A DNA stretch of 64,000 nt from positions 374,604-438,603 of the forward strand of contig NZ_JABEKT010000003.1 in the NCBI RefSeq assembly GCF_013283195.1, in the 5' to 3' direction. Position numbers and translations under genes: made by a program. Source of the stretch: Ensifer adhaerens (lineage in GTDB: Bacteria > Pseudomonadota > Alphaproteobacteria > Rhizobiales > Rhizobiaceae). The first letter of the stretch is position 1, and each line of letters begins with the position of its first letter. Shown here one piece after another: positions 39,407 through 55,090 of this stretch. The notes under the pieces are model-generated. The model ran no database searches. It saw only the letters and a list, made by a program, of their open reading frames with translations, and was not told where the DNA came from.

Positions 39407-40600
39407 TTACGCCGAGATCTCTACGTGGGCGCGCATGACGCCGCGCAGTTCCGCGAGGCCCTTCAGGCGGCCGATGTAGGAGTAGCCGGCGTTCACCTTC
39501 ACGCCAGCCTCGACCTTTGCGATATCGTCTGCCAGCAGATGGCCGTGATCAGGCCGCATCGGGATCAAGGCGTCTGCTCGTCCCTCGGAACGGCGGCGCT
39601 TTTCCTCATCGAGTAGCGTGAACACGATCTTCACCATGTCGGAGTCGCCATCGAGGTGTTCTGCTTCATAGAACGAGCCATCCGGCTCGCGCGTGGTGTT
39701 GCGCAAATGCGCAAACGCGATGCGCGGTGCGAATTCGGCAGCCAGGGCTGGAAGGTCGTTGTCCGCCCGAGCGCCCATGGAGCCGACACAGAAGGTCACT
39801 CCGTTCGAAAGGCTAGGATGTGCACGAAGAATGAAGCGGAAATCCTCTGCCGTCGACACGACACGCGGCAGGCCGAAGAGCGAGAACGGCGGATCGTCGG
39901 CGTGAATGCCCAGACGCACGCCCAGTTCTTCAGCAACCGGCGCCATCTCTTTGATGAATTCGGCTAGGTTCGCACGCAGTTCGTCGGCAGAGACGCCATC
40001 AAATTGCGCAATCTCACGGGCTATCCCTTCCCGGCTGTAGGTGTCCTCGCCGCCGGGGAGACCCGCGATGATGTTGCGCTCCAGCACCTGTTGCTGCTTC
40101 TCGTCCATGGCTTCGAACCGAGTCTGTGCCTGTGAAACCAGGCTCGCATCATAATCGCCAGCCGCATTTGCGCGGCGAAGCACGAAGACGTCGTAGGCGA
40201 CGAAATCAACCATGTCGAAGCGTAGCGCGTAGCCGCCGGACGGAAGAGCGAAATGAAGGTTTGTTCGCGTCCAGTCCACAACGGGCATGAAATTGTAGTT
40301 GACGACTTTGACGCCGGCTTCCGCCAGAACCGCGAGTGTAGCCTTCCAGTTGGCGAGCGTGGTGCGGAACGAGCCTGTGCGCAATTTGAGGTCCGACGGC
40401 ATTGGAATGGATTCCACGACGGACCAGCGCAGCCCGTGCGCCTCGATGAGCTCCTTTCGCTTGAACACGTCGTCTCTCGACCACGCCGCACCCGGCCTAT
40501 AGCCGTGGAGCGCGGAAACGATCCCAGTGACACCCGCCTGTTTGATGTAGTCGAGAGTGACCGAGTCACCTGGTCCAAACCACCGCCAGCACTGTTCCAT
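39407..40600 (-). CDS. uxuA: Mannonate dehydratase
   Basis: A 397-residue UxuA-type dehydratase that removes water from D-mannonate to give 2-keto-3-deoxygluconate. Family segments are MEQCWRWFGPGDSVTLDYIK, the metal-ligand region NGVTFCVGSMGARADND, IAFAHLRNTTREPDGSFYEA and PMRPDHGHLLADD. Full length. It lies 76 bases after the permease gene and before the SDR gene, which supports a hexuronate-type or related acid-sugar substrate for this operon. Confidence 0.95.
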   Translation of the reverse strand: MEQCWRWFGPGDSVTLDYIKQAGVTGIVSALHGYRPGAAWSRDDVFKRKELIEAHGLRWSVVESIPMPSDLKLRTGSFRTTLANWKATLAVLAEAGVKVVNYNFMPVVDWTRTNLHFALPSGGYALRFDMVDFVAYDVFVLRRANAAGDYDASLVSQAQTRFEAMDEKQQQVLERNIIAGLPGGEDTYSREGIAREIAQFDGVSADELRANLAEFIKEMAPVAEELGVRLGIHADDPPFSLFGLPRVVSTAEDFRFILRAHPSLSNGVTFCVGSMGARADNDLPALAAEFAPRIAFAHLRNTTREPDGSFYEAEHLDGDSDMVKIVFTLLDEEKRRRSEGRADALIPMRPDHGHLLADDIAKVEAGVKVNAGYSYIGRLKGLAELRGVMRAHVEISA

Positions 40601-40676
40601 TGGTTTTCCTCATTTGGTTATTGTTCGCGGAGGATGTTCTGACGACGCGGGCGGCACAACAGCTGCCCGCATCGCA

Positions 40677-41645
40677 TTACTTCCCGCGACGCCGCAATTG
40701 GTCGAAGTAGACGATAGCGATAATCAGAAGTCCGGTGATAATTCTCTGCCAGAACGAGTTCACGTTAAGCAGGTTGGCGCCGTTGTTGATCGTCGCGAGG
40801 ATGAACGCTCCGATAAGCGGCCCCTGAACGGAACCGACCGCGCCGAAGAGGGACGTTCCGCCGATGACGCTTGACGCGATCGCCTGCAATTCCCAACCGT
40901 CGCCCTGCGTGGCATTCCCGACGCCGAGGCGGGCCGAAAGAAGCACGCCGACGAAGGCGGCCGATACCGCCGAGACGCAATAGGCGAGATAGATCAGCTT
41001 AGAAACGTTGACACCGGAAAGGCGCGCCGCTTCCGGGTTCGAACCGACCGCAAAAAGATAGCGTCCCCATTTCGTGTGTTCGAGGAGCAAATACGCAGGC
41101 GCGGCGACCACAACGACCATCCAGAAGAGGTTCGGGATGCCGAGGAAGGAATCGCGCGCAAACTGGGCGAGGCCCTGATGGGTGATGTTGATCGTCGCGC
41201 CATTGGTCATCAAAAGACCGATTCCGCGCAGCGAAGTCAGCGTCGCTAGCGTGATGATGAAGGGCGGCAAGCCCATTTTCACGATGCCGAAGCCGTGGAA
41301 AACGCCTATTGCCAGACCGACGAGCAAGGTCGCAATGATTGCAAGCCAGACGGGGAAACCAGCCTGGAGCAGCGATGCGATGATAACCGTCGCAAAGCCG
41401 ACCACAGCGCCAACCGACAGGTCGATGCCTGCAGTGATGATGACGAATGTCTGGCCGATCGACAGCACGGCGATCATGGAGCCCTGCCGCAGCAGATTGG
41501 CAATGTTGTTCCCCGTCGCGAACGTGTTGGTCGCAATGCTCAAGATGGCGCAAAGTGCGACCAGAAGGCCGACGAGCGTCAGCGAGAACAAGAGATTGTA
41601 GTTTTTCCGCGATACGGGTTTTTCGGTGGACTCAAGGGTTGCCAC
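40677..41645 (-). CDS. Ribose-type ABC permease
   Basis: A 322-residue RbsC-family permease of the CUT2 class. QTFVIITAGIDLSVGAVVGF and FAVGSNPEAARLSGVNVSKL are the hallmark segments, and eight to ten membrane helices are visible. It starts with GTG at 41645 behind AGGAGG. It works with the tandem ATPase encoded upstream. Confidence 0.94.
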   Translation of the reverse strand: MATLESTEKPVSRKNYNLLFSLTLVGLLVALCAILSIATNTFATGNNIANLLRQGSMIAVLSIGQTFVIITAGIDLSVGAVVGFATVIIASLLQAGFPVWLAIIATLLVGLAIGVFHGFGIVKMGLPPFIITLATLTSLRGIGLLMTNGATINITHQGLAQFARDSFLGIPNLFWMVVVVAAPAYLLLEHTKWGRYLFAVGSNPEAARLSGVNVSKLIYLAYCVSAVSAAFVGVLLSARLGVGNATQGDGWELQAIASSVIGGTSLFGAVGSVQGPLIGAFILATINNGANLLNVNSFWQRIITGLLIIAIVYFDQLRRRGK

Positions 41646-41671
41646 AGCTTCCTCCTCTCAATTGAACAGCG

Positions 41672-43183
41672 TCAGACGCCAATGGCGAGCGCTAGAATTT
41701 CTTCTTCCGTCTTTTCACGGTACGTGTGGGTGCCGACCTGCTTGCCGCTACGAAAGACGTGGAGCGTGTCCGCTAGCTCGTAGACTTCGGGAAGGTAGGA
41801 AGAGATCACGATGATCGCGGCCCCGCGCTTCAGCAGAGCGCCGAAGAGCCGGTAGATTTCCGCCTTCGTCCCGACGTCCACACCGACCGTCGGCTCGTCG
41901 AAAATAAACAGTTCCGCACCGTGGTTCAGCCATTTGCCGATGACGATCTTCTGCTGGTTTCCGCCCGACAGGGAGGACGCAAGTGAGCGGCGCGACGGCG
42001 TTTTGATCGCAAGGTCCCTGATCTGCTTTTCCGCACGATCGATCTCCCCACGATGATTCAGCGTGAGGCCACGCTGAAGAGTGTCGTAGACTGGAAGGTT
42101 GATGTTCAGAGAAATCGGCAGATTGAGATTGAGTCCCTGGTCGCGCCGGCTCTCAGGCGCAAGGGCGATCCCCAAATCGATGGCCGTGCGCACATCGCGG
42201 ATCGCGATCGGCTTGCCGTGCCATTTGATTTCTCCCGAGGTACTGGGATTGCGGCCGAAGAGGCTAAGCGCGAACTCGCTACGTCCGGCCCCAATCAACC
42301 CGTACAAGCCAACGATCTCGCCCTGCCTGACGGTCAGGTCGATGTCAGCAAAGCCCGTCCCGGTAAGCGCTCGCGTGGACAGAACTTCGCTGCCGAAGGC
42401 GACTTTCTCTTTGTGGTAGATCTGCTCCAGTGACCGGTTGATCATCAGCGTAACGAGTTCGGCATTGTTGGTCTCGTCGATGTTTCTCGTTCCGACAAAA
42501 TTGCCGTCCCGCAACACAGAAACACGATCGGCGAGCTCGAAGACCTCTTCCATGCGGTGGCTGATGTATACGATCGTGACGCCATCAGCCTTCAGTCGGC
42601 GAATGAGCTTGAAAAGCTGGTCGGCTTCCTGCCTTGTGAGGTAAGCGGTGGGCTCATCGAAGATGAGGAACTTCGTGCCGCGGACCGACGCGCGCGCGGT
42701 GGCGACGAGCTGCTGCTGGCCGATCGTCAACGAGCCGAGCTGCACATCCGCCGGAATATCGAAGCCGATATCGTTCAGGATTGCCTGGGCACGCGTGATC
42801 ATTTCCTTCTTGCGAAGGAGGCCACCTTTCAGAACCTCGTCGCCGAGGAAGATGTTGGCCGCGACGGTGAGGTGCGGACAAAGCACCACTTCCTGGTGGA
42901 CCGCATTGATGCCGATCGCGATTGCATCGGCCGGGTTTTCGAGACTCACTTCTGTGCCACGCCAGAACATCGTGCCGGACGTCTTCTTCACGACGCCTGT
43001 CAACACTTTGATCAAGGTCGATTTGCCTGCGCCGTTCTCGCCGACGATGGCGTGGACTTCGCCGGGCATGAAGGAAAGCGTGAGCGGCTTGAGCGCGCGA
43101 ACGGGTCCATACTGTTTTTCGACGTCCCGTAGGTCCAGGATCGGCACGGCCGAAACCGTCGACGCCAATGTTTCAGTCGTCAT
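41672..43183 (-). CDS. Ribose-type ABC transporter tandem ATPase (RbsA family)
   Basis: A 503-residue protein with two nucleotide-binding halves. The first has Walker A GENGAGKST (48-56). Its signature is LTIGQQQLVATARA, and the Walker B segment is LIFDEPTAYLTR. The second half has the usual degenerate Walker A (YGLIGAGRSEFAL) and an intact signature SLSGGNQQKIVIGKWL. The start at 43183 follows CAGGAG. It energises the CUT2 permease next to it. Confidence 0.95.
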   Translation of the reverse strand: MTTETLASTVSAVPILDLRDVEKQYGPVRALKPLTLSFMPGEVHAIVGENGAGKSTLIKVLTGVVKKTSGTMFWRGTEVSLENPADAIAIGINAVHQEVVLCPHLTVAANIFLGDEVLKGGLLRKKEMITRAQAILNDIGFDIPADVQLGSLTIGQQQLVATARASVRGTKFLIFDEPTAYLTRQEADQLFKLIRRLKADGVTIVYISHRMEEVFELADRVSVLRDGNFVGTRNIDETNNAELVTLMINRSLEQIYHKEKVAFGSEVLSTRALTGTGFADIDLTVRQGEIVGLYGLIGAGRSEFALSLFGRNPSTSGEIKWHGKPIAIRDVRTAIDLGIALAPESRRDQGLNLNLPISLNINLPVYDTLQRGLTLNHRGEIDRAEKQIRDLAIKTPSRRSLASSLSGGNQQKIVIGKWLNHGAELFIFDEPTVGVDVGTKAEIYRLFGALLKRGAAIIVISSYLPEVYELADTLHVFRSGKQVGTHTYREKTEEEILALAIGV

Positions 43184-43239
43184 GAGTACACTCCTGCGCA
43201 CCGATCACGGTTGACGGCGCGTCATCGTCAACAAGGAGC

Positions 43240-43265
43240 GCCCGCCCCCGAGTTCAGGGGCGGGC
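43240..43265 (-). other. GC-rich hairpin after the first binding-protein gene
   Basis: GCCCGCCCC and GGGGCGGGC are perfect 9-base arms around eight bases, in the 90-bp gap between the binding-protein and ATPase genes. It likely stabilises the binding-protein transcript and reduces read-through. Confidence 0.6.
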
Positions 43266-43273
43266 CTGGCTTC

Positions 43274-44257
43274 TTAGTTGATCTTGGGATTCAGCAGCTC
43301 CTGGCTGCGGGCCTCATCGATGTTCTTGGTGGTGATGACGCTGACGCCGGTGTCAACCTTAGCCTCCACCTTTTCGCCCTTCACCACGGCGAACGCGGTC
43401 TTGACGCCGTCATAGCCCATGCGGAACGGGTCCTGCACGATCAGCGCGTCGATCACGCCTTCCTTGAGGAAGCCGACGAGCTTGTCGTCACTGTCGAAGC
43501 CGACCAGCGCGACGGTGTCCTTGACGTTGTTCTCCGCAATCCCTTGGCCGGCACCCTGGGCCATGATCAGGTTGGACGCGAAAATGCCCTTGATGTTCGG
43601 ATTGGCGGTCAGAAGGTCAGTCGTCATGTTTAGCGCCGTAGCGGCCTGGCCATCGGCGACCTTGTCATAAACGAGTTTCAGGCCTGGGTACTTGGCCGCG
43701 AGCTGCTCTTCGAAGCCCTGCACGCGCGCATCGACCGAACCGGAGCCGGCCAAGGCCTTGATCAGGGCCACTTCGCCCTCAACCTTGCCGCCGTTCGCTT
43801 CGCCGATCGCTACAGCGAGGGCGTCCGCTGCGTTCCGGCCACCCTGGACGTTGTCGGTGCTGAGGAACGAGGTTAGCGCCTGGGAGTTCGGCGCCGAGTC
43901 GAGGCCGACGATCGGGACGGACTTTGCTGCCTGGTCAATGGGGGCGCCCAGCGCGGTGTACTCGGTCGGCGCGATTACGATCGCCTTGGAACCGCTCGAC
44001 ACGGCGTTCTCCAGGATGGCGATCTGGCCATTGATATCGGATTCAGACTGCGCGCCCAGTTCCGGCACGGATACGCCAAGGTCCTTACCGGCCTTGCGTG
44101 CGCCGGCGAGAACGATCTGCCAATAGTAGGACGTCGTGTCCTTGACGATGACCGGGATTGTGACGTCCTCGGCGGCTGCCTGGGAAACAGGCAGAGCCAA
44201 GATCGTCGATGCGAGAGCTGCCAGAACGATAGAACGACGGGCGCGCGAAAACTTCAT
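43274..44257 (-). CDS. RbsB-type sugar-binding protein
   Basis: A 327-residue periplasmic binding protein. It has a signal peptide (FSRARRSIVLAALASTILAL, cleavage near AAAED) and a mature start VTIPVIVKDTTSYYWQIVLA. It is the first gene of the seven-gene acid-sugar operon. Of two adjacent ATGs (44260 and 44257), the second is better spaced from GGGAGG. A TACCATGGTA operator lies about 84 bases upstream of the start. It has a paralogue at the far end of the operon (36436). Confidence 0.94.
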   Translation of the reverse strand: MKFSRARRSIVLAALASTILALPVSQAAAEDVTIPVIVKDTTSYYWQIVLAGARKAGKDLGVSVPELGAQSESDINGQIAILENAVSSGSKAIVIAPTEYTALGAPIDQAAKSVPIVGLDSAPNSQALTSFLSTDNVQGGRNAADALAVAIGEANGGKVEGEVALIKALAGSGSVDARVQGFEEQLAAKYPGLKLVYDKVADGQAATALNMTTDLLTANPNIKGIFASNLIMAQGAGQGIAENNVKDTVALVGFDSDDKLVGFLKEGVIDALIVQDPFRMGYDGVKTAFAVVKGEKVEAKVDTGVSVITTKNIDEARSQELLNPKIN

Positions 44258-44340
44258 CATGCATTCCTCCCAATGGATGGTGCCGAAGCGGCTACTCCTC
44301 AAAGACCGCGGCTGCGATCGCCATAATCGTTAAAGGATAG

Positions 44341-44350
44341 TACCATGGTA
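44341..44350. promoter_or_regulatory. TACCATGGTA operator, copy A
   Basis: The palindrome TACCATGGTA lies in the promoter region of the binding-protein operon. On the minus strand the longer context is AATGTTGACTACCATGGTAC, closely matching copies at 45158 and 51000. It marks a shared regulator of the acid-sugar block. Confidence 0.65.
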
Positions 44351-44371
44351 GTCAACATTAAACAGCAGTAA

Positions 44372-45058
44372 TTAGTGACCGTCGTGGGCATGCTCATGAT
44401 CGTGTTCGTGGAACTCCGGAAGCGTCAGCCCAAATGCCGAAACAAGATCGGCGACCTGCGCCGGCGACAGAAGGCGCGGGTTAAGACCCTGCAAAAGAAG
44501 GTAAAGACGGGCCGTTTCCTCCAGCTCTTCCGTGGCGAAGACCGCGCCTTCCAGGTCCCGGCCGCAAACGACGGGACCGTGATTGGCCAGCAGCACTGAA
44601 GTATATTTTCCGGCCAATCCCCGAATGGCGTCGGCAACGGCAGGATCGCCTGGACGATGATATGGAACGAGCGCGGTTTGGCCGGCACGCATCAGGTAGT
44701 AGGGTGTCAGCGCCGGGAGCACCGCCTTGGGGTCGATCTCCGGTAGCATGCTGAGTGCCACGGAATGGGTCGAATGAAGGTGAACGACAGCCTGGGCGTC
44801 GCCCACGGTTTCGTAGAGCGCCGCGTGCAGAGGGATCTCTTTCGTCGGCTTTGCACCGGAAACTACCCGGCCGTTTTCGTCGAGACGCGACAACTCGGCC
44901 GGATCCAGAAATCCGAGTGACGCGTTCGTCGGCGTCACAAGCCAGCCGCCGCCGGGAAGCCGGACTGAAATGTTGCCGGACGATCCGGGAGTCAGCCCGC
45001 GGTTGAAGAGCGACCGTCCAAACCTGCAGATTTGCTCGCGAAGTTTCAATTCTGACAT
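44372..45058 (-). CDS. otnC: 3-oxo-tetronate 4-phosphate decarboxylase (class II aldolase family)
   Basis: A 228-residue class II aldolase/adducin-family enzyme. It has the phosphate site TPGSSGNISVRLPGGG, acid TKEIPLHAALYE, metal-binding HLHSTHS and NHGPVVCGRD. With otnK, otnI and ltnD next door the best assignment is OtnC, which decarboxylates 3-oxo-tetronate 4-phosphate to dihydroxyacetone phosphate. A fuculose-phosphate aldolase role is the alternative. The start at 45058 follows GGAG. The last 12 residues are a His/Asp/Glu-rich tail (HEHDHEHAHDGH), unusual for the family and probably metal-binding. Confidence 0.85.
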   Translation of the reverse strand: MSELKLREQICRFGRSLFNRGLTPGSSGNISVRLPGGGWLVTPTNASLGFLDPAELSRLDENGRVVSGAKPTKEIPLHAALYETVGDAQAVVHLHSTHSVALSMLPEIDPKAVLPALTPYYLMRAGQTALVPYHRPGDPAVADAIRGLAGKYTSVLLANHGPVVCGRDLEGAVFATEELEETARLYLLLQGLNPRLLSPAQVADLVSAFGLTLPEFHEHDHEHAHDGH

Positions 45059-45157
45059 TTCGTTTTCTCCTGCTCTTGACGCCGAGACTTGCAGAACGCG
45101 CGATAGGTCGTTGCAATTCCCGCTTGGCAAACCCGCCATTCTCCGTTAAATGAACAC

Positions 45158-45167
45158 TACCATGGTA
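45158..45167. promoter_or_regulatory. TACCATGGTA operator, copy B
   Basis: ACACTACCATGGTACACG lies between the divergent otnC (minus) and ltnD (plus) genes, about 100 bases from the first and 66 from the second. It shares ACTACCATGGTAC with copies A and C. Confidence 0.7.
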
Positions 45168-45232
45168 CACGACAATTAGGAAGTGTCTCGACGCCCCTGT
45201 CGTGGGCCAATCAGCAAAACTGGAGGAGACGC

Positions 45233-46162
45233 ATGTCAGATCGCGCTCAAGGAGAGCCGTTGAAGGTTGCCGTCATCGGTCTCGGATCGATGGGGTTCGG
45301 AATGGCGGAGTCGCTCCTGCGAGCCGGCTTCGATGTAGCTGGCTTCGACATCACCGACGCGGCGCGTGAACGACTTCGCTCGGCCGGCGGCACGTCCGGA
45401 GGCTCCCCGATCGAAGTGGCTACGGGCGCTTCGGTCGTTGTGTCCGTCGTGGTCAATGCCCGTCAGACCGATGAGATCCTGTTTGGCGATGCCGGAGCGA
45501 TCGGTGGAATGCCGGCAGGATCAGTTTTTATCTCGTCGGCAACGATGTCTCCTACCGACGCCGAGAACCTGGCGGCGAAAGCGAAAGAGCGCGGGGTTTT
45601 CTTCCTCGATGCCCCGATTTCTGGTGGAGCGAAGCGCGCCGCCGCCGGCGAACTGACGATCATGGCATCTGGTGAACCGGAAGCGTTTCTAAAGTCGGAA
45701 GGCGTCCTGTCGGCACTCGCGCAGAAGGTTTATCGTCTCGGCGACCGTGCCGGGATCGGCGCTTCGGTAAAAATGATCAATCAACTCCTGGCCGGAGTTC
45801 ACATCGCGGCAGCCTGCGAGGCAATCACGCTTGCTTCCAAGCTGGGCCTTGATCTTCGCACGGTCTACGAGGTGATCACTGCCTCGGCCGGCAATTCCTG
45901 GATGTTTGAGAACCGAATTCCACATGTCCTCGATGGCGATTATCGTCCGCTGAGCTCGATCGAAATCTTCGTGAAGGACCTCGGCATTATCCAGGATATG
46001 GCGCGGTCCGAACGCTACCCCGCCCCCATCGCGGCCGCAGCCCTCCAGATGTATCTTGCCGCGGCGGGTGCAGGCATGGGCCGCGATGACGACTCCTCGG
46101 TCGCACGCGTTTACGCCCAGCTGTCCGGCGCGGCGCTCCCGCCGTCATCTGTAGACCTGTAG
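45233..46162 (+). CDS. ltnD: L-threonate dehydrogenase-like enzyme
   Basis: A 309-residue enzyme of the 3-hydroxyisobutyrate dehydrogenase superfamily. It has the NAD(P) site VAVIGLGSMGFGMAESLL (about 12-30), the substrate motif FLDAPISGGAKRAAAGELT, and the catalytic Lys in GASVKMINQLLAGVH. It should oxidise L-threonate (or D-erythronate) at C2 to 2-oxo-tetronate, the first step of the pathway completed by otnI, otnK and otnC. It heads the plus-strand operon behind operator B, with GGAGGA as ribosome binding site. Confidence 0.88.
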   Translation: MSDRAQGEPLKVAVIGLGSMGFGMAESLLRAGFDVAGFDITDAARERLRSAGGTSGGSPIEVATGASVVVSVVVNARQTDEILFGDAGAIGGMPAGSVFISSATMSPTDAENLAAKAKERGVFFLDAPISGGAKRAAAGELTIMASGEPEAFLKSEGVLSALAQKVYRLGDRAGIGASVKMINQLLAGVHIAAACEAITLASKLGLDLRTVYEVITASAGNSWMFENRIPHVLDGDYRPLSSIEIFVKDLGIIQDMARSERYPAPIAAAALQMYLAAAGAGMGRDDDSSVARVYAQLSGAALPPSSVDL

Positions 46163-46172
46163 GCCGTGCGCT

Positions 46173-46952
46173 ATGCCGAATTTCGCAGCCAACCTGACGA
46201 TGATGTTCAACGAGGTCCCGTTCGCCGCGCGGTTCGAAGCAGCGGCCGCCGCGGGTTTCGAGGCGGTGGAATGTCTCTTTCCCTATGGCATTCCGGCTCA
46301 TCAGCTTTCGCAGATCCTCAAGTCGCTCGATCTTAAACAGGCGATCTTCAATCTTCCCCCGGGTGATTGGGATGCTGGCGAGCGTGGCATTGCCAGCGCA
46401 CCGGGCCGTTTCGAAGATGTGAAGGCGGGCGTGGAACTTGGGCTGGAATATGCCGAAGCCACCGGCGCGACACGTCTCCACCTGATGGCCGGCCTTGCCG
46501 ATCGAAACGATCCTGCGGCCGTCGCATCCTACCGGCGTGCGGTAGAGTACGTGGCTGGCCGCCTGGCAGAACACGATCTCATCCTGCTGCTCGAACCCAT
46601 CAATGGCCGCAGCATGCCGGGCTACTTCCTGAACGATTTCGCATTTGCCGAACGGCTGATCAACGAGATTGGCCAGTCGAACGTGCGCCTGCAATTCGAT
46701 GTCTTCCATCGGCAGATCATGCATGGCGACATCGCGAAGTCTTTCGAGCGGCTGCTGCCGATCGTCGGGCACGTCCAGATCGCCAGTGTGCCCTCACGCC
46801 ACGAGCCGGCAGGAGAGGAGCTGAACTATCCGTTTATTTTCAGCGCGATCGATGCGACCGGCTACGATGGCTTCGTTGGTTGCGAATACAACCCCAAGGG
46901 TAACACGCTCGACGGGCTGGGCTGGTTCGAACCCTTTAAGAGGAGGCAGTGA
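46173..46952 (+). CDS. otnI: 2-oxo-tetronate isomerase (hydroxypyruvate isomerase-like)
   Basis: A 259-residue TIM barrel close to hydroxypyruvate isomerase: MPNFAANLTMMFNEVPFAAR, EAVECLFPYGIPAHQL, LLLEPINGRSMPGYFL, VRLQFDVFHRQIMHGD, GFVGCEYNPKG. In threonate/erythronate clusters the family member OtnI converts 2-oxo-tetronate to 3-oxo-tetronate. It starts 10 bases after ltnD and ends 1 base before the kinase start. Confidence 0.88.
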   Translation: MPNFAANLTMMFNEVPFAARFEAAAAAGFEAVECLFPYGIPAHQLSQILKSLDLKQAIFNLPPGDWDAGERGIASAPGRFEDVKAGVELGLEYAEATGATRLHLMAGLADRNDPAAVASYRRAVEYVAGRLAEHDLILLLEPINGRSMPGYFLNDFAFAERLINEIGQSNVRLQFDVFHRQIMHGDIAKSFERLLPIVGHVQIASVPSRHEPAGEELNYPFIFSAIDATGYDGFVGCEYNPKGNTLDGLGWFEPFKRRQ

Positions 46953-46953
46953 C

Positions 46954-48219
46954 GTGGTAGCACGTATTGCAGCGATTGCCGACGACTATACAGGCGCGTC
47001 AGACCTTGCCAACACTTGGCGCCGCAACGGCCTGAAGACCATTCAGACGATTGGCGTCCCGACGTCGATAGACACCTCGGATGCGGACGCAATCGTCGTG
47101 TCATTCAAGATACGGTCAGTGCCAGCCGACGAAGCCGTGGCCGCCGCGCTGGAAGCCTACGATTGGCTCAGGGAGATTGGTGTCGAGCACGTCATGTACA
47201 AGATCTGCTCGACCTTCGATTCCACAGACAACGGCAATATCGGGCAGGTCACCGATGCCTTGCGCGATAAGGCTAATGCGGGCTGGACGCTTGTGACGCC
47301 CGCATTTCCGGAGACGAAGCGTACCCTCTACAAGGGCCATCTTTTCGTCGAAAACTCTCTTCTGAACGAGAGCCCGCTCAAGAACCATCCGATCAATCCG
47401 ATGCATGATCCGAACCTTGTACGGGTTCTCGGCAAGCAGTCGAAGGATACGGTAGGTCTCGTGGAGCTTGCCACGATCCGCGCTGGCGACGACGCGGTCA
47501 TCGCACACCTCCGCGGTTTGCAGCAATCGGGCGTTCGCTCCGTAATCGCTGACGCCGTAGCGGAAAGCGATCTGGAGACGCTGGGCCGCGTCGCCATGCA
47601 GTCCGCAGTTTCGACAGGGGCCTCCGGTCTTGGCCTCGGTCTTGCCCGTGCGGTTCGCCAAGTGGGCGCGCCGGGCGGCGCGGATGGTGAAGGCGCGGCG
47701 AAGGTGGATGGCTACTCCGCAATCGTCGTCGGAAGCTGCTCGGCGCGTACACTCGAGCAGATTGCTGAAGCTGAAAAGATCATGCCCGTTCTTCGGCTCG
47801 ATTCCGACCAGCTTCTCGGAAGCGACGGCGATATCAGCGAAGCCATCGCCTGGGCAACGGCACGGTTGCCGGATGGTCCGGTACTGATCGCAGCCAGCGC
47901 CGACCCGTCGACCGTCGGTGCGATCCAGCAGAAATACGGCTGGCACAAGGCGAGCCAGGTTATCGAAGCAGCTTCGGGGAGACTTGCCACGGCCCTCGTC
48001 GATGGTGGTGTTCGCAAGCTTGTTGTCGCCGGAGGAGAGACCTCCGGGGCAGTAGTCGACCATCTGCGGATCGCCGGCTTCCGCATCGGCGAGGAGATCG
48101 CGCCCGGCGTGCCCGCACTGAAAACCATTGGCCGGAGTGACGGCGAGCTTTCGATGGCGCTCAAATCCGGCAATTTCGGCGGGATCGATTTCTTCGCGCT
48201 CGCACTTTCCAAACTCTGA
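46954..48219 (+). CDS. otnK: 3-oxo-tetronate kinase (DUF1537 family)
   Basis: A 421-residue kinase of the four-carbon acid sugar kinase family. The N-terminal domain is IAAIADDYTGASDLANTWRR with TTT-like segment KICSTFDSTDNGNIGQVTDA. The C-terminal nucleotide-binding part is VVAGGETSGAVVDHL, then IAPGVPAL. It phosphorylates 3-oxo-tetronate at O4. The start is a GTG at 46954 after AGGAGG, placed two bases after the otnI stop. The substrate assignment rests on the otnI/otnC/ltnD neighbours. Confidence 0.92.
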   Translation: MVARIAAIADDYTGASDLANTWRRNGLKTIQTIGVPTSIDTSDADAIVVSFKIRSVPADEAVAAALEAYDWLREIGVEHVMYKICSTFDSTDNGNIGQVTDALRDKANAGWTLVTPAFPETKRTLYKGHLFVENSLLNESPLKNHPINPMHDPNLVRVLGKQSKDTVGLVELATIRAGDDAVIAHLRGLQQSGVRSVIADAVAESDLETLGRVAMQSAVSTGASGLGLGLARAVRQVGAPGGADGEGAAKVDGYSAIVVGSCSARTLEQIAEAEKIMPVLRLDSDQLLGSDGDISEAIAWATARLPDGPVLIAASADPSTVGAIQQKYGWHKASQVIEAASGRLATALVDGGVRKLVVAGGETSGAVVDHLRIAGFRIGEEIAPGVPALKTIGRSDGELSMALKSGNFGGIDFFALALSKL

Positions 48220-48241
48220 AATACCTCTGGAGGAGACACCT

Positions 48242-49174
48242 ATGTTGACGGACTGGTTTGAGGTCAAGGATCCGCGCTTTACCGCGCTGGTGTTCGAAAA
48301 CGTCCATGTCGAAAAACTGTGGAGCGGCGCCCGCTGGACTGAGGGGCCCGCTTATGTGGCGGCGGGAAAATATTTGCTGTTTTCGGACATCCCGAACGAC
48401 AGGATCATGCGCTTCGATGAAACGAACGGCGCTGTGTCCGTCTTCGAGACGCCGTGCGGTTTTCAGAACGGTCGCACTGTAGATCCCGAAGGTCGCGTGG
48501 TCGCTTGCGAGCATGGCGGCCGGCGCGTCTCGCGGCGCGAACACGACGGCTCAATCACCGAGCTTGCTTCTTCCTACAAGGGAAAGCGGCTGAATTCGCC
48601 CAATGACGTCGTCGTCCGTTCGGATGGCTCGATCTGGTTCACCGACCCGACCTACGGCATCGATAGCGACTACGAGGGTCACAAGGCCGATTCCGAGATC
48701 GGCGCATCCTATGTCTACCGGATCGATGCCGATGGCGGCGATCTCACCGCTGTCGCCACCGACTTTGCAAAGCCCAACGGACTGGCCTTCAGCCTCGACG
48801 AGAAGCAGCTCTACATCTCCGATACCGGCCTCAGTCACGACCCGGCCGGCCCGCACCACATTCGTGTGTTCGACATCGCCGAAAACGGACGTGAACTGAC
48901 GAATGGACGGGTCTTCGCTACCTGCGATGCCGGCGTCTTCGACGGTTTCCGCCTCGACTGCCTCGGCAACGTCTGGGCAAGTGCGGGCGACGGTGTCCAT
49001 TGCTTTGCGCCGGACGGCACGTTGCTTGGCAAGATCAGGATACCCGAGGCTGTAGCGAACGTCGAATTCGGCGGCCTCAATCGCAATCGCCTTTTCATCA
49101 CGGCCACGCAGAGCCTCTATTCGGTCTACGTCCGCGTCAACGGTGCCCGCAATCTCGCGCGCCACGTCGGCTGA
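48242..49174 (+). CDS. SMP-30/gluconolactonase-family lactonase
   Basis: A 310-residue six-bladed beta-propeller. It has the metal-site segments WTEGPAYVAAGKYLLFSDIP, LNSPNDVVVRSDGSIWFTDP, KPNGLAFSLDEKQLYISDTG and the blade-six ending. It hydrolyses sugar lactones formed by dehydrogenases to the free sugar acids. An excellent site GGAGGAG precedes the ATG. It belongs to the ltnD operon and would supply aldonates. Confidence 0.92.
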   Translation: MLTDWFEVKDPRFTALVFENVHVEKLWSGARWTEGPAYVAAGKYLLFSDIPNDRIMRFDETNGAVSVFETPCGFQNGRTVDPEGRVVACEHGGRRVSRREHDGSITELASSYKGKRLNSPNDVVVRSDGSIWFTDPTYGIDSDYEGHKADSEIGASYVYRIDADGGDLTAVATDFAKPNGLAFSLDEKQLYISDTGLSHDPAGPHHIRVFDIAENGRELTNGRVFATCDAGVFDGFRLDCLGNVWASAGDGVHCFAPDGTLLGKIRIPEAVANVEFGGLNRNRLFITATQSLYSVYVRVNGARNLARHVG

Positions 49175-49207
49175 CGCTCAACGCATCCAAGCGACAAGAG
49201 AAAACCC

Positions 49208-50500
49208 ATGACACACTCCGCACGTCCCAGCTGGATCGGCATGACCGGACCGCGCTATGTCGAACGCCCCGTCCACCGGCACTGGCTCCTGTCCCAGGCA
49301 CGCTCGCTGTTCGATTTCTTCCAGTATACCGCCTTCAATCCGAAGGGCGGTTTCTCGACACTGGCCGACGATGGTCAGCCGAACCCCTCCGAGCCGGGTC
49401 ATGTCGGCGCGCTTCGTCAGCTACATGACACGTCGCGCATGGTGCATTGCTTTGCTGTCGCCCAAATGCTCGGCCTTCCGGGCGCCGACCGCAATGTGGA
49501 CCATGGCATGGACTTCATCTGGAAGCGCCACCGCGACACGACGAACGGCGGATACTTCTGGGGCGTCGATGACGAGAAGGCCACGCATCCGAACAAGCTC
49601 GCCTATGGCCATGCCTTTGTGATCCTCGCCGCCTCCTCCGCAAAGATCGTTGGCCACCCGGACGCCGATCGGTTGATGGCCGATATCCTCGAAGTGCTGC
49701 ACACGAAGTTCTGGGATAAGGCGGCTGGCGCGACCACCGAAGAATACGCCTCTGACTGGAGCGAAATCAGCGACTATCGCGGGCAGAACTCCAACATGCA
49801 TCTCACTGAAGCGCTGATGGCTGCATTCGAAGCGACCGGCGATCGCCAGCTTCTGACGATGGCCGAAAGCATCGCCTCGCTCATCATCAATCGCCATGCC
49901 CGTGACCAGGGTTGGCGCGTTGCCGAACACTTCACACGCGACTGGAACGTCGATCTGAACTATGCGGGCGATCCGATGTTCCGGCCAAGGGGAACGACGC
50001 CGGGTCACGCGCTCGAATGGAGCCGGCTGCTCGTCCAGTTGTGGGAACTCGGCGGCCGCGCACATTCTTGGATGCTCGAGGGTGCGAAGGGCCTGTTCCT
50101 GAAAACGGTGGAGACCGGCTGGAACAATGAAGTCGGCGGTTTCTACTACACGCTGACTTGGGACGACCGGCCGGATCGCAACGATCTCTACTGGTGGCCT
50201 TGCGCTGAGGGCATTTGCGCTGCCGCTGTTCTTGCCGCCGTCGACGACGATCCGCGTTTCGAGGAATGGTATCGCCGCATCTGGGGGTTCGTGAACAACC
50301 ACTTCATCGACCGTCGCCAAGGCTCGGGTGGGTGGATTCCGGAACTGGACAACGATCTACGTCCGGTCAACCGCGTCTTCATCGGCCGCCCCGACCTATA
50401 CCACGCCGTTCAGTCATGTCTGATCCCGTTGCTTCCCTCGAGTGGCAGCATCACTCGCGGGCTCGAAGGCAACGGCACGCTCTACGTTCTGAGTGCCTGA
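49208..50500 (+). CDS. AGE-family (N-acylglucosamine 2-epimerase-like) isomerase
   Basis: A 430-residue (alpha/alpha)6-barrel protein: LHDTSRMVHCFAVAQMLG, NKLAYGHAFVILAASSA, QNSNMHLTEALMAAFEATGD, LNYAGDPMFRPRGTTPGHAL. The His residues in the central cavity match YihS-like aldose-ketose isomerases and cellobiose 2-epimerases. It probably interconverts an aldose and a ketose feeding this block. The exact sugar is unknown. It starts 34 bases after the lactonase. Confidence 0.87.
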   Translation: MTHSARPSWIGMTGPRYVERPVHRHWLLSQARSLFDFFQYTAFNPKGGFSTLADDGQPNPSEPGHVGALRQLHDTSRMVHCFAVAQMLGLPGADRNVDHGMDFIWKRHRDTTNGGYFWGVDDEKATHPNKLAYGHAFVILAASSAKIVGHPDADRLMADILEVLHTKFWDKAAGATTEEYASDWSEISDYRGQNSNMHLTEALMAAFEATGDRQLLTMAESIASLIINRHARDQGWRVAEHFTRDWNVDLNYAGDPMFRPRGTTPGHALEWSRLLVQLWELGGRAHSWMLEGAKGLFLKTVETGWNNEVGGFYYTLTWDDRPDRNDLYWWPCAEGICAAAVLAAVDDDPRFEEWYRRIWGFVNNHFIDRRQGSGGWIPELDNDLRPVNRVFIGRPDLYHAVQSCLIPLLPSSGSITRGLEGNGTLYVLSA

Positions 50501-50529
50501 AATCAACGCCACTCAACAGGTGACATCGA

Positions 50530-50961
50530 ATGCTTAAAGGTTTTTCCAACCTCCTGACGCCGCAGCTTCTCTATGTGTTGCAAGCCATGGGCCACGGCGA
50601 CGAGATCAGTATCGTCGATGGAAACTATCCCGGCGAAAGCGCCGGCCCGAAACTTGTCCGGCTGGATGGGCACTCGGCCACAGACGTGCTCGATGCCATC
50701 TTGAGCGTCATGCCGCTCGACACCTTCGTCAAGGACCCGGCAGTCGGCATGGATGTCTCCGCCGAGGTCAAGGAGCGTCCGCCAATCTTGGCCGATTTCG
50801 AGGCGATCATCCAAAGGCACGAGCCGGATATGGGTCTGACCCTCGTCAACAAGCCGGATTTCTATCCGCGTGCCAATCGAGCCTACGCAATTGTCCAGAC
50901 AAGTGAAGCCAGGCTCTATGGCAACATCGTCTTGAAGAAGGGCGTGATTTTCCCGTCATAG
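50530..50961 (+). CDS. RbsD/FucU-family sugar mutarotase
   Basis: A 143-residue protein: LLTPQLLYVLQAMGHGDEIS holds the catalytic His of the family, IVDGNYPGES follows, and the ending YGNIVLKKGVIFPS matches the C-terminal substrate-binding strand. It catalyses anomer conversion of a sugar such as L-fucose, ribose or a related ketose. It is the last gene of the ltnD operon, before operator C. Confidence 0.9.
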   Translation: MLKGFSNLLTPQLLYVLQAMGHGDEISIVDGNYPGESAGPKLVRLDGHSATDVLDAILSVMPLDTFVKDPAVGMDVSAEVKERPPILADFEAIIQRHEPDMGLTLVNKPDFYPRANRAYAIVQTSEARLYGNIVLKKGVIFPS

Positions 50962-50999
50962 GCGTTTTTGACGCACTTCGGTGCTCGACAAATGTCCAC

Positions 51000-51009
51000 T
51001 ACCATGGTA
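51000..51009. promoter_or_regulatory. TACCATGGTA operator, copy C
   Basis: The context AATGTCCACTACCATGGTAC lies 33 bases before the ATG of the SDR gene. It closely matches the longer context of copy A and shares ACTACCATGGTAC with copy B. The position overlaps a probable promoter, suggesting repression. Confidence 0.7.
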
Positions 51010-51041
51010 CTACACTATCCCAGCAATAGGGAGGATACAGC

Positions 51042-51794
51042 ATGCTCATTTCTCTTGAGGGAACGAACGTCGTTGTCAGTGGCGCCGCCGGCGGCGTCGG
51101 CCGATCCGTTGTCAGAAAGCTCCTCGAACTTGGAGCCAATGTTTGCGCGACAGACATCACTGAATCTGTCTTCGAACTGAAGTCGCTTGGCGACCATGTC
51201 CAGGCAGTCGTCGCCGACGTGACGAAGAGCGCCGACGTCGAGCGCATCTACGAGGCCGCGGAAAAGGCGTTTGGAACCGTGGATTGCCTGGTCAGCAATG
51301 CCGGTTTCATCATCTCGAAGTCGGTCCACGAGACCTCGGAAGAAGAATGGGACAACGTCCTTGATGCGAATGCGAAGTCGTTCTTCCTGATGTCCAAACG
51401 TGCGCTTGGCGGCATGAGGGAGAAGGGCAAGGGCTGCATCGTGGCGACCGGCTCCATCTCGAGCGTCGTTGGCCTCCCCGCCCAGGCTGCCTATTGTGCC
51501 AGCAAAGGCGCCCTGCTCCAGCTCGTCCGCCAGATGGCGATCGACTATGCCGCCGACGGCATTCGGGTGAATGCGGTCGGCCCGGGCTCTATCGATACGC
51601 CTTTCCTGCGCAAGTATCTGGACGGCCTGGCCGATCCGGCCGCCGGCATGGCCGACATCAAGGCTGCTCACCCACTCGGCCGCTGGGCCGAGCCAGACGA
51701 GGTCGCCGACTCAATCGTTTACCTGTGCTCTCCCGCAAGCTCGTTCGTCACGGGGCAGATTCTCATGGTCGACGGCGGCTACTCGGCGCGGTGA
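51042..51794 (+). CDS. SDR-family oxidoreductase
   Basis: A 250-residue short-chain dehydrogenase. It has the cofactor site VVVSGAAGGVGRSVVRKLLE, the Asp that selects NAD (VCATDITE), the NAG motif CLVSNAGF, the active site GSISSVVGLPAQAAYCASKG, and the C-terminal GQILMVDGGYSAR. It probably oxidises a sugar or sugar acid. It is first in a two-gene unit with the HpcH/HpaI aldolase, under operator C. Confidence 0.9.
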   Translation: MLISLEGTNVVVSGAAGGVGRSVVRKLLELGANVCATDITESVFELKSLGDHVQAVVADVTKSADVERIYEAAEKAFGTVDCLVSNAGFIISKSVHETSEEEWDNVLDANAKSFFLMSKRALGGMREKGKGCIVATGSISSVVGLPAQAAYCASKGALLQLVRQMAIDYAADGIRVNAVGPGSIDTPFLRKYLDGLADPAAGMADIKAAHPLGRWAEPDEVADSIVYLCSPASSFVTGQILMVDGGYSAR

Positions 51795-51835
51795 CGCGTA
51801 CGCATCCACAAAAACTGCAGCCACAGGAGCTTGAA

Positions 51836-52642
51836 GTGAACCCGAACACAGCAAAAATCGCACTTTCGAACGGAAAGCCCCTCTTTGGGTGCTGGATCCA
51901 GCTGTTCAATCCTGTGGTCGCCGAAATGATGGGTCTGTGCGGCTACAACATCCTGATGATCGACATGGAGCACGGCCTCGGCTCCGTGCAGGATACGGCA
52001 AACGTCATGCGCGCCGCCCGCGGTACAGGCGCCGCGTCCCTCGTTCGTCTTCCGGCCAACGATCCCGTCATCATCAAGACTTTGATGGATCAGGGTGCCG
52101 ATGGCATCATGGTTCCTATGGTCGAGACGCCGGAAGCGGCGCAGGCCGTCGTATCGGCCTGCCGCTATCCACCCAAAGGAAATCGCGGCCTCGCCGTCGG
52201 TATCGCCCGCGGTTCGGATTATGGCATCAACGAAAATTACGTGGCTACGGTTGACGACCATACGCTCGTCATCTGCCAGATCGAAACGGTGCTTGGCGTC
52301 AAGAACGCGAGGGCGATAGCGGAAATTGATGGCGTCGACATGCTGTTCATCGGCCGCAACGATCTGGCGGCAGACTCCGGCCATATCCTCGATCTCGATC
52401 ACCCCGAGGTGAACGCACTCGTCGACGAGGTGCTCGCCATCGCCAAGGAAACGGGCAAGAAGATCGGAACCGTGCCGAGCGCCGGCCGTACATGGGAGAA
52501 GCTGATCGACGAAGGCTTCGATCTCGTCATTCCGTCGAGCGACATCTCCATTTTGAGGATGTTTGGCCAGCAGGAAGTCGGTGCATTCCGAGCGCATGTC
52601 GGTGACGAGCGCGCATCTTCCCGCATAGCGAAAGGCTACTGA
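51836..52642 (+). CDS. HpcH/HpaI-family aldolase
   Basis: A 268-residue class II (metal-dependent) aldolase. FGCWIQLFNPVVAEMMGLCG and ILMIDMEHGLGSVQD hold the conserved acid/His region, DGIMVPMVETPEAAQAVV holds the metal-binding Glu, and VDMLFIGRNDLAADSG the metal Asp. It likely cleaves a 2-keto-3-deoxy sugar acid to pyruvate plus an aldehyde, as RhmA, GarL or HpaI do. The start is a GTG at 51836 after AGGAG. It follows the SDR gene. Confidence 0.9.
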   Translation: MNPNTAKIALSNGKPLFGCWIQLFNPVVAEMMGLCGYNILMIDMEHGLGSVQDTANVMRAARGTGAASLVRLPANDPVIIKTLMDQGADGIMVPMVETPEAAQAVVSACRYPPKGNRGLAVGIARGSDYGINENYVATVDDHTLVICQIETVLGVKNARAIAEIDGVDMLFIGRNDLAADSGHILDLDHPEVNALVDEVLAIAKETGKKIGTVPSAGRTWEKLIDEGFDLVIPSSDISILRMFGQQEVGAFRAHVGDERASSRIAKGY

Positions 52643-52795
52643 CCATCGCGGTCGCGTGAGCGTCCGGGGAGGATAGAAGAGAGGACAATCAGGCAGTTTC
52701 GCAATCAGGACGCGGTCGCCAGCGTGACCGCGAACGATCGCGCTCGGAAACTCGCAAGCGTGGCGAGTGATTTGCAGCAACCAAGGGAGGTTCAA

Positions 52796-54103
52796 ATGCG
52801 CAAATATGCATTACTGTTTGGGGCACTCAGCTCGCTGATGTCCACTACTGCCATGGCCGAAACCGTGTTGACGATCGCGACCGTCAACAACGGCGATATG
52901 ATCCGCATGCAGGGTCTCACCGACGACTTCACTGCGAAGAACCCCGATATCCAGCTCAACTGGGTCACCCTCGAAGAGAACGTTCTTCGAGAGCGCGTCA
53001 CCACGGACATCGCGACCAAAGGCGGCCAATACGACATCCTGACGATTGGCACCTATGAGACTCCCATCTGGGCAAAGAATGGCTGGCTCCTGCCGCTCGA
53101 TAAGCTCGGCGCCGACTACGACGCCGATGATCTGCTCCCTGCGATCCGCGAGGCGGTCTCTGTCGACGGCAAGCTCTACGCATCCCCGTTTTATGCCGAA
53201 AGCTCGCTGGTAATGTATCGCAAGGACCTGTTCGAAAAGGCGGGCCTGAAGATGCCGGAAGGCGGCCCCGATTGGAAGTTCATCGGGGAGGCAGCCCGCA
53301 AGATCGATGATAAGGCAAACGGCATTTCCGGCATCTGCCTTCGCGGCAAGGCCGGCTGGGGCGAGAACATGGCCCTGGTCACGGGTATCGCCAATGCCTA
53401 CGGCGCCAAATGGTTCGATGAAAACTGGAAACCCCAGTTCGACACCGACAAGTGGAAGGAGGCGGCAGCCTTCTATGTAAACCTTCTCCGCGACGCCGGT
53501 CCGCAGGGCGCTTCCTCGAACGGCTTCAACGAAAACCTGGCGCTTTTCCAGCAGGGCAAGTGCGGCATGTGGATGGATGCGTCGGTCGCGGCGTCCTTCG
53601 TATCCAACCCGAAAGAATCAACTGTCGCCGACCAGGTCGGCTATGCGCTGTCTCCAAACGTTGGCGGCGGCGAAAGCCGTGGCAATTGGCTGTGGGCCTG
53701 GACCCTCGCGATTCCGTCGAGCTCGACCAAGGCCGACGCAGCGCAGAAGTTCATTTCCTGGGCGACCGACAAGGCCTACCTCAACCTCGTCGCCTCCAAG
53801 GAGGGATGGGCGAACGTTCCCCCGGGTACCCGCAAGTCGCTCTACGACAATGCACAGTATCAGAAGGAAGCCCCGTTCGCTGCAATCACCCTCGACGCGA
53901 TCAACGCTGCGAACAAGGGCAAGCCGCAAGCCCAGTATCCCGCCTGGGGCTATATCATCATCCCGGAATACCAGAGCATCGGGACCTCGGTCGGTCAGCT
54001 TTTCTCGGCTGCCGTCGCCGGGCAGCTTTCCGTCGATGATGCGCTCGCACAGGCGCAGTCGGTGACCACGCGCGAGATGACCCGCGCGGGCTACATCAAA
54101 TAG
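52796..54103 (+). CDS. smoE: Polyol ABC transporter binding protein (SmoE-like)
   Basis: A 435-residue periplasmic binding protein of the CUT1 class. It has a signal peptide (KYALLFGALSSLMSTTAMAE) and a mature start TVLTIATVNNGDMIRMQGLT typical of sorbitol/mannitol binding proteins. Other segments are YDILTIGTYETPIWAKNGWL and YPAWGYIIIPEYQSIGTSVG. The ATG at 52796 has a strong AAGGGAGG. It is first in the smoEFGK-dehydrogenase operon; the 153 bases before it hold a small hairpin but no recognisable operator. Confidence 0.92.
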   Translation: MRKYALLFGALSSLMSTTAMAETVLTIATVNNGDMIRMQGLTDDFTAKNPDIQLNWVTLEENVLRERVTTDIATKGGQYDILTIGTYETPIWAKNGWLLPLDKLGADYDADDLLPAIREAVSVDGKLYASPFYAESSLVMYRKDLFEKAGLKMPEGGPDWKFIGEAARKIDDKANGISGICLRGKAGWGENMALVTGIANAYGAKWFDENWKPQFDTDKWKEAAAFYVNLLRDAGPQGASSNGFNENLALFQQGKCGMWMDASVAASFVSNPKESTVADQVGYALSPNVGGGESRGNWLWAWTLAIPSSSTKADAAQKFISWATDKAYLNLVASKEGWANVPPGTRKSLYDNAQYQKEAPFAAITLDAINAANKGKPQAQYPAWGYIIIPEYQSIGTSVGQLFSAAVAGQLSVDDALAQAQSVTTREMTRAGYIK

Positions 54104-54117
54104 CGCCTCCCAAGGCG

Positions 54118-54142
54118 GCGGCCGCTCCGCTTGAGCGGCCGC
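54118..54142 (+). other. Strong hairpin after the smoE-like gene
   Basis: GCGGCCGCTC and GAGCGGCCGC are perfect 10-base arms around five bases, 15 bases after the binding-protein stop and 64 before the permease ATG. There is no T-run. It resembles the intercistronic hairpins that keep binding-protein mRNA more abundant than permease mRNA. Confidence 0.65.
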
Positions 54143-54205
54143 TCTACACCTCAGTTCAAAATCAAAGTCTGAGAGCCCGCATCGTCGGGCGGAAGGGAGC
54201 ACAGG

Positions 54206-55078
54206 ATGTCAGCCAAAAGTACAAGATCGCTCGCTCGCCTCACGATGGCGCCTGCAGTCGGCCTCTTGCTTGTCTGGATGATCGTGCCGCTCGTGATGAC
54301 GCTGTGGTTCTCGTTCCAGAACTACAATCTCCTCAATCCGGGGAACGTCAGTTTCGCCGGCCTGTTCAACTATCAGTACTTTTATACGGACCCGGCGTTC
54401 TTCCAGTCGATCTGGAACACGCTCGTCATAGTGGGCGGTGTTCTTTTGATCACGGTCATCGGCGGCATCGCCATCGCGCTGCTGCTAGACCAGCACATCT
54501 GGGGCCAGGGCGTAGTTCGCATCCTCGTCATCTCCCCCTTCTTCGTCATGCCGCCGGTCGCAGCACTCGTGTGGAAGAACATGATCATGCATCCGGGCTA
54601 CGGCGTGCTCGCGGATATCAACCGGGCGCTCGGCCTGCAGCCAGTCGACTGGTTCGCGCAATATCCGCTGCTGTCGATCATCATCATCGTCGCCTGGCAA
54701 TGGTTGCCCTTCGCCACACTTATCCTCTTGACCGCCCTACAGTCGCTCGACGGCGAGCAGAAAGAGGCGGCGGAGATGGACGGCGCCAATTTCGCGAACC
54801 GCTTCATTCACCTCACGCTGCCGCATCTCGCTCGCTCGATCACCGTCGTCATCCTCATCCAGACGATCTTCCTTCTCGGCGTCTATGCGGAAATCCTCGT
54901 CACCACCAATGGCGGGCCGGGCTATGCCTCCACGAACCTGCCCTTTCTGATCTACCGCACCGCCCTGCTCGGCTACGACGTCGGCGGCGCCTCGGCAGGC
55001 GGCATCATCGCCGTGATCCTCGCAAACATCGTCGCCTTCTTCTTGATGCGCGCCGTCGGCAAGAACCTGGACAAGTAA
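54206..55078 (+). CDS. smoF: Polyol ABC permease, SmoF-like
   Basis: A 290-residue MalF-type permease with six membrane segments (first about 15-37, GLLLVWMIVPLVMTLWFSFQ) and the EAA loop DGEQKEAAEMDGANFANRFI. It pairs with the SmoG-like protein. GGAG precedes the start. It is separated from the next gene by 12 bases. Confidence 0.94.
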   Translation: MSAKSTRSLARLTMAPAVGLLLVWMIVPLVMTLWFSFQNYNLLNPGNVSFAGLFNYQYFYTDPAFFQSIWNTLVIVGGVLLITVIGGIAIALLLDQHIWGQGVVRILVISPFFVMPPVAALVWKNMIMHPGYGVLADINRALGLQPVDWFAQYPLLSIIIIVAWQWLPFATLILLTALQSLDGEQKEAAEMDGANFANRFIHLTLPHLARSITVVILIQTIFLLGVYAEILVTTNGGPGYASTNLPFLIYRTALLGYDVGGASAGGIIAVILANIVAFFLMRAVGKNLDK

Positions 55079-55090
55079 GGAGGACTCTCT

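Follow-up and report, generated by a model that had tools for sequence, protein, structure and literature searches.

Local, autoregulated GntR/FCD repressors of sugar-acid genes are a well-known kind of system. Here, we describe a probable member of this kind in a 64,000-nucleotide stretch of DNA from Ensifer adhaerens (contig NZ_JABEKT010000003.1; this whole stretch is referred to below as the window), in which the palindrome TACCATGGTA stands at the promoter regions of a large block of sugar-acid genes. Sites of the FadR subfamily are given as TKGT/ACMA, with GT and AC 2–3 nt apart, and the exceptions include NanR and BioR (PMC4494728). The Escherichia coli protein DgoR, a D-galactonate repressor of the GntR/FadR type, is likewise an FCD sugar-acid repressor; its operators overlap the promoter, as we predict for the window, and its effector pocket holds an Asp/His metal site. 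It differs in its operator, IR1, which reads GT-N3-AC (TTGTAGTACAAC) and not CC-AT-GG, and in its gene set (PMC7674646, PMC12288454). NanR of E. coli is also an FCD GntR with a metal site, and its GGTATA repeat resembles GGTAGTAT, but it binds three such repeats, whereas the sites here are inverted palindromes (PMC8012715). UxuR and ExuR of E. coli are FCD GntRs of hexuronate genes, and in the window uxuA lies behind a site. Unlike here, their operator is of the TKGT/ACMA type (PMC4494728). The four-carbon acid pathway that is also found in the window has a described repressor in Brucella: VdtR, which represses the ltnD/otnK/otnI/otnC cluster from the ltnD promoter, differs in being a DeoR-type protein whose own gene lies inside the cluster (PMC10580937).

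We propose that the palindromes are operators through which the GntR/FCD protein encoded at 58591–59343 would repress three promoter regions, and from the sequence we assign this reading a probability of about 85%. The rarity of the site, its conservation before the gntR operon and uxuA, and its co-occurrence with a GntR clade together support this protein as the regulator. The most interesting feature of the regulon is its non-standard operator.

The palindrome is present as an exact 10-mer at 44341, 45158 and 51000 (sites 1, 2 and 3), with no further exact copy in the window, compared with a mean of 0.01 copies in 100 dinucleotide shuffles. The clustering of the three sites is not due to chance. 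All three fit AATGNNNACTACCATGGTAC without a mismatch (site 1 on the minus strand), and a scan that allowed up to three mismatches returned four rows, the fourth being site 1 on the opposite strand, where 0.03 were expected. Four exact TACCATGGTA 10-mers occur in the 7.07-Mb genome, three of which are the window sites. The fourth, on contig C12, was rejected as a regulon member, being inside a 684-aa frame; a one-mismatch core at 34035, considered as a fourth window site, was rejected as well, being inside the frame 33972–35024. The 15-mer ACTACCATGGTACTA with up to three mismatches gave 20 rows across the genome (two of them sites 1 and 3 on the opposite strand), against 81 rows for the reversed control pattern, and at two mismatches or fewer only the window sites are left (0, 0 and 2).

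The site cores lie 32–99 bp from gene starts, where the start codons are those that we picked from the sequence. Site 1 is 80 bases from the ATG of the binding-protein gene at 44260. Site 2, close to the centre of the 174-bp stretch between the divergent otnC and ltnD genes, is 65 bases from ltnD (45233) and 99 from otnC (ATG at 45058), and site 3 is 32 bases from the start of the SDR gene (51042). The original prediction had placed three exact copies upstream of gene starts, covering the transporter/uxuA unit, the divergent otnC/ltnD promoters and the SDR/aldolase unit, and in all of this it was correct. The random recurrence in the genome that it had set as a test was not seen. The AATGT flank that it had ascribed to every copy is found at sites 1 and 3; site 2 has AATGA, and the flank does not belong to the wider consensus.

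Conservation was examined from the side of the protein. Fourteen orthologues were found by GntR similarity at 43–86% identity: seven in the same family (43–56%), six in other families of the order (44–57%), and the closest, at 86%, in Rhizobiales bacterium AFS002495, the one close relative found (a further listed match, to an archaeal bin at 28%, was left out). Allowing no more than one mismatch in the 10-mer, the palindrome is present at 11 of the 14 orthologous loci, and in 7 of the 10 orthologues that the site scan described below had not already brought in. At 10 of the 11 site-bearing loci it immediately precedes the SDR gene of an operon that encodes an ABC transporter and, downstream, GntR, and 6 of the 11 have a site before uxuA; a site before ltnD was seen only in the window and AFS002495 among the loci examined. 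The exact 12-mer ACTACCATGGTA occurs in 4 of the 7 family orthologues, compared with 28 of 393 genomes (p = 6e-4, without correction for relatedness). In a matrix scan, 10 of the 14 loci reached a score of at least 19, and AFS002495 scored 18.5. Because the site-scan loci and the window had served to train the matrix, it is non-independent for four of the 14 (G233, G057, G097 and G099). With column-shuffled matrices, none of the 14 loci reached 19 in any of 40 shuffles, and the 259,511 bases of other DNA that were fetched held no site scoring at least 14.

AFS002495 serves as a natural control, in which the predicted sites stay at the starts of transcription units. Its block is compact, and the 20.7 kb examined yielded no otnC, no otnI and none of the ABC transporters of the window. 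Sites are retained before uxuA and ltnD, 155 bp apart, and the one before ltnD matches site 2 also in its near flank. The SDR gene lies about 20 bp behind the epimerase (AGE) gene and has no site, and gntR follows the aldolase gene. As a separate observation, a genome that has the orthologous regulon, G479, also carries a second near-perfect pair of palindromes 5 kb apart (contig C1, 1407901 and 1412975).

Independently of the protein, 394 genomes of the family were scanned for the site. The exact 12-mer was found in 29 of them, and all its places in the 28 other genomes were fetched as 31 regions. A GntR of at least 100 bits is present in 20 of these regions, with its aligned end 39–287 bp from the site in 12 and 5.2–6.8 kb from it in 8. 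Thirteen of these 20 proteins were compared with the 32 FCD-type GntRs of the E. adhaerens genome (L067, L073, L085, L086, L087, L089 and L091 were used only in a wider tree, L073 as its wider copy L159). All 13 had the 58591 protein as best match, at 126–265 bits, with the next at 87 bits or less. In a tree, they form one clade with it (100/100), and none of the other 31 FCD GntRs of the genome falls inside. The 58591 protein is the right candidate, since no other FCD GntR of this genome groups with the site-associated ones. The original prediction had named it as the nearest candidate and had found no regulator in the block; the choice is borne out by the clade, and the placement is not, since gntR closes the unit that site 3 begins. 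In the wider tree, built from 48 such GntRs plus five from the genome itself, the 28 site-associated proteins fall into two clades of 15 rows (12 with a site) and 17 rows (16 with a site). A third clade is without this form of site, and its branching order with the other two is unsettled in this tree. A search with the SDR protein in 11 genomes was uninformative, as SDRs are too common.

Exact palindromes were also observed before glycosyl hydrolase family 3 genes, away from gntR, in three of the site regions without such a GntR (L066 at 10000, L068 at 9996 and L071 at 9997), from three genomes of one genus. These genomes (G108, G334 and G398) encode such a GntR elsewhere, and the hydrolase genes are likely to be members of the regulon in trans.

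The proposed regulator scores 49.7 bits against PF00392 (cut-off 27) and 61.5 bits against PF07729 (cut-off 24.3), which assigns it to the FadR (FCD) subfamily of the GntR family, with an N-terminal GntR winged helix and a C-terminal FCD domain. Its best NCBIfam match is NanR (NF003011), at 60.1 bits against a cut-off of 260, and it reaches 19.1 bits against a cut-off of 442 for the UxuR group (NF007588), so that it is assigned to neither. The tandem GGTATA operator of the NanR type is likewise not what the window sites show, these being inverted palindromes. The metal-ligand residues of the FCD domain (D-x3-H...H...H; D141, H145, H189 and H211) are invariant in 10 aligned sequences, and their spacing of 4/44/22 equals that given for Ps5454 in PMC7674646. 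These residues fit a metal-held sugar acid as effector.

We infer binding, repression, autoregulation and the role of an effector as follows. A GntR dimer would bind each ACTACCATGGTA(G/C) palindrome, overlapping the core promoter. It would thereby block the transporter/uxuA unit, the divergent otnC and ltnD units, and the SDR-aldolase-ABC-uxuB-like-gntR unit, including its own gene, and a sugar-acid intermediate held by the FCD metal site would release it. Autoregulation is likely because gntR is the last gene of the unit begun by site 3, with which the intergenic gaps (14, 153, 102, 12, 8, 67 and 89 bp) suggest that it is co-transcribed. Operator-like sites thus stand before the catabolic units and before the gntR-bearing unit, as in an autoregulated local GntR regulon. 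The effector is more likely to come from the mannonate/hexuronate branch than to be L-threonate, because the SDR/ABC unit and uxuA follow the sites in most orthologous loci, whereas, of the loci examined, the window and AFS002495 alone yielded ltnD and otnK.

The sites also suggest a means of the predicted repression. In a list of 20 sites, drawn from the window and the 11 orthologous loci only, TTGAC stands directly before TACC at 10. Two of the 20 (45158 in the window and 11429 in L078) belong to divergent regions, with a unit facing each arm, and one of these two is among the 10. At the 18 one-sided sites, TTGAC is on the arm that faces the regulated unit in nine and on the other arm in none. 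Because it is found only on the gene-facing arm, TTGAC is more likely to be a −35 box than a part of the operator, which suggests promoter occlusion by a repressor.

Several results weigh against the reading of the palindromes as operators of a GntR repressor. The palindrome signal is positional only: raw presence of the 12-mer is not enriched (29 of 394 genomes, compared with about 49, counted by eye, for the reversed control), and CTACCATGGTAG with up to two mismatches was rarer than its reversed control in all 14 genomes checked. In 11 of the 31 site regions there is no GntR of at least 100 bits. Three of the 14 orthologues have no site, and they were kept as misses in the counts, the wider tree and the matrix scan. 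Among these, G329 has ACTAGTATACAAGT at the same place, before the SDR/ABC operon, G681 has GCTAGTATGGTAGC 2.7 kb before its SDR gene, and G251, on a 4.5-kb contig, has weak matches only. Five rhizobial plasmids with matches to ltnD-otnI-otnK, covered for 6 kb on either side of the match (13.6–13.8 kb per plasmid), have neither the exact palindrome nor the half-converted core described below nor a matrix score of at least 9. Within the window, neither site 2 nor site 3 has TTGAC, the candidates for a −10 box are weak, and a consensus promoter scan found no promoter at the sites; that the protein is a repressor, as opposed to an activator, is what we infer.

The points on promoters would also suit a different explanation, in which the sites bind the GntR and act as activator sites, or act differently at each promoter. 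Such an arrangement would agree with the position of site 2 near the middle of the divergon, with no clear −35, and with the missing promoter consensus at sites 2 and 3. On the other hand, the overlap of TTGAC with the operator on the unit-facing arm alone fits occlusion, and a single mid-divergon site usually serves both operons in the GntR family, according to PMC4494728. We consider this explanation unlikely. It is quite unlikely that the palindromes are operators of another regulator, either another FCD GntR or a protein of another family, with the 58591 protein as a bystander. The regions that lack such a GntR could be understood in this way, binding by the 58591 protein is predicted from sequence, and a LacI regulator stands beside the otn clusters of three annotated rhizobial plasmids; but these LacI-neighboured clusters are without the palindrome, the other 31 FCD GntRs of the genome fall outside the site-associated clade, and the association with the site is seen in two GntR clades with differing gene arrangements. 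Finally, a recent duplication of a promoter segment, a non-regulatory repeat or chance, which the three exact copies within 6.7 kb might bring to mind, is very improbable, as the flanks differ among sites 1–3, sites stand before orthologous genes in other families, and the only further genome copy is inside a coding frame.

With the palindromes taken as GntR operators, the gene content of the regulon can be compared between genomes. The four-carbon acid genes look like later recruits. Among plasmid records, the nearest have only about a quarter of 44000–51300 in common with the window, mostly ltnD-otnI-otnK, at about 71% (best 40 of 77 records); the five rhizobial plasmids described above are among them, and in three annotated Rhizobium plasmids (L189, L190 and L191) a LacI-family gene adjoins the otn cluster. 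This plasmid system resembles the window in having ltnD, otnI and otnK in the same order, and in an aldolase gene that lies beyond the regulator, on the other strand; it differs in its regulator, assigned to the LacI family by annotation only, and in having no TACCATGGTA in the fetched 13.7 kb. Judged by these sequences, conservation of the regulon does not extend to the otn genes, and the otn pathway seems to have come under GntR control in the window as a later recruit. Conservation of the sites in orthologous promoters, which the original prediction had set as a test, is upheld for the gntR operons (10 of 11) and uxuA (6 of 11), in 11 of 14 orthologues, and fails for the otn genes of the rhizobial plasmids (0 of 5). 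Within the genus, the block and the regulator (window 44341–59343) look accessory, because the 11-mer CTACCATGGTA occurs in only one of the 15 other genus genomes and no orthologous GntR was found in the seven sampled. Specifically, the 11-mer is in 2 of 16 genus genomes (G000 and G005, the G005 copy being inside a frame), and of the seven other members sampled six had no GntR match and G010 a weak one (4e-26).

The operator itself departs from the usual TKGT-N2/3-ACMA form. It reads TACC-AT-GGTA in the same register, and the consensus operator, ACTA-CC-AT-GG-TAGT, has CC/GG where GT/AC is expected; the window copies have TAC or CAC in place of the last TAG(T). Before the same operon, G329 keeps a classical core, ACTA-GT-AT-AC-AAGT. 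Variant cores were looked for at 16 GntR-centred loci not known to be site-associated, together with L157, L160 and L186. Nine of the 16 (L135–L138, L144–L147 and L150) belong to a neighbouring clade with the helix SRQPxREA, and 7 of these 9 have a half-converted core, CTA-GT-AT-GG-TAG (CTAGTATGGTAG), one of them with GA for GT. This core lies 76–103 bp before the aligned part of the locus's own gntR (L135–L137 and L144–L147). None of the three operator forms was found at the other seven of the 16 loci. The half-converted form does not occur in the window, nor in the 11 orthologous site loci, the 31 site regions or the 259,511 bases of other DNA.

Residue 39 of the DNA-binding domain (numbering of PMC4494728; alignment by eye) is Gln in the SRQP clade and Thr or Ser in the window clade. 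It does not account for all operator differences, because Thr is also present in G329, in G681 and in six distant GntRs (L141–L143, L148, L154 and L155), and near these six none of the three operator forms was found. We tentatively suggest, with somewhat less than even confidence, that this lineage re-specified the GT...AC box to CC...GG in the same register, with surviving intermediates in G329 and the SRQP clade. If true, this would provide a natural series for operator change one half-site at a time, and the same regulator would also have recruited a four-carbon acid pathway that LacI and DeoR proteins seem to control elsewhere.

The features of the window are summarized in Table 1. OtnC, LtnD, OtnI and OtnK each exceed the curated cut-off that NCBIfam sets for the four-carbon acid (L-threonate type) pathway, and UxuA exceeds that for mannonate dehydratase. 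Two genes, for the aldolase (51809) and the UxuB-like protein (56999), score under the cut-offs of the enzymes to which they are similar. The ATPase and permease of unit 1 and the four ABC transporter genes of unit 3 were named by our reading of the translations, and the remaining genes of the window by family or by such reading. A neighbouring sugar block (29731–37443), which holds a binding protein (36436–37443) 66% identical to that of unit 1, contains no exact palindrome.

Table 1. Predicted operator sites, regulator and transcription units in the window
Feature	Position	Strand	Basis or content
Predicted operator site 1, ACTACCATGGTACTA	44338..44352 (core 44341–44350)	-	Exact match; upstream of the transporter/uxuA unit; uxuA of AFS002495 has a corresponding site
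Candidate −35, TTGACT	44350..44355	-	Predicted; overlaps operator arm of site 1
Predicted operator site 2	45156..45170 (core 45158–45167)	+	Two mismatches to the 15-mer; otnC/ltnD intergenic region
Predicted operator site 3	50998..51012 (core 51000–51009)	+	Same place filled in 10 orthologous loci
GntR/FCD regulator, proposed DNA-binding repressor	58591..59343	+	Last gene of unit 3; Pfam GntR and FCD; clade of site-associated GntRs
Unit 1	39407..44260	-	Ribose-type ABC transporter and uxuA
Unit 1, binding protein	43274–44260	-	
Unit 1, ATPase	41672–43201	-	
Unit 1, permease	40677–41645	-	
Unit 1, uxuA	39407–40600	-	
Unit 2a, otnC	44372..45058	-	3-oxo-tetronate 4-phosphate decarboxylase; NCBIfam equivalog, 311.9 bits, cut-off 250
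Unit 2b	45233..50961	+	ltnD, otnI, otnK, gluconolactonase-like, GlcNAc 2-epimerase-like (AGE), RbsD/FucU
Unit 3	51042..58501	+	SDR, HpcH/HpaI-type aldolase, four ABC transporter genes, mannitol-dehydrogenase/UxuB-like gene; then gntR

We did not find this operator described in the literature searched; a 2019 J Bacteriol paper on hexuronate regulons in Proteobacteria, which was outside the search, could cover the wider group. By title, the matches listed for TACCATGGTA included no GntR operator with it, and those listed for ACCATGGT with the FadR subfamily or a palindrome held nothing on the site. Titles did not tie CTACCATGGTAG to bacterial regulators, and TAGTATGGTAGTAT was not found.

For a large sugar-acid catabolic block that combines a four-carbon acid pathway with genes of the mannonate/hexuronate type, the analysis puts forward a likely regulator, with its likely operator and regulon. 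A search with the GT-N2/3-AC consensus alone would miss GntR/FCD regulons such as this one, and the operator variants in related GntR clades make the evolution of half-sites testable.

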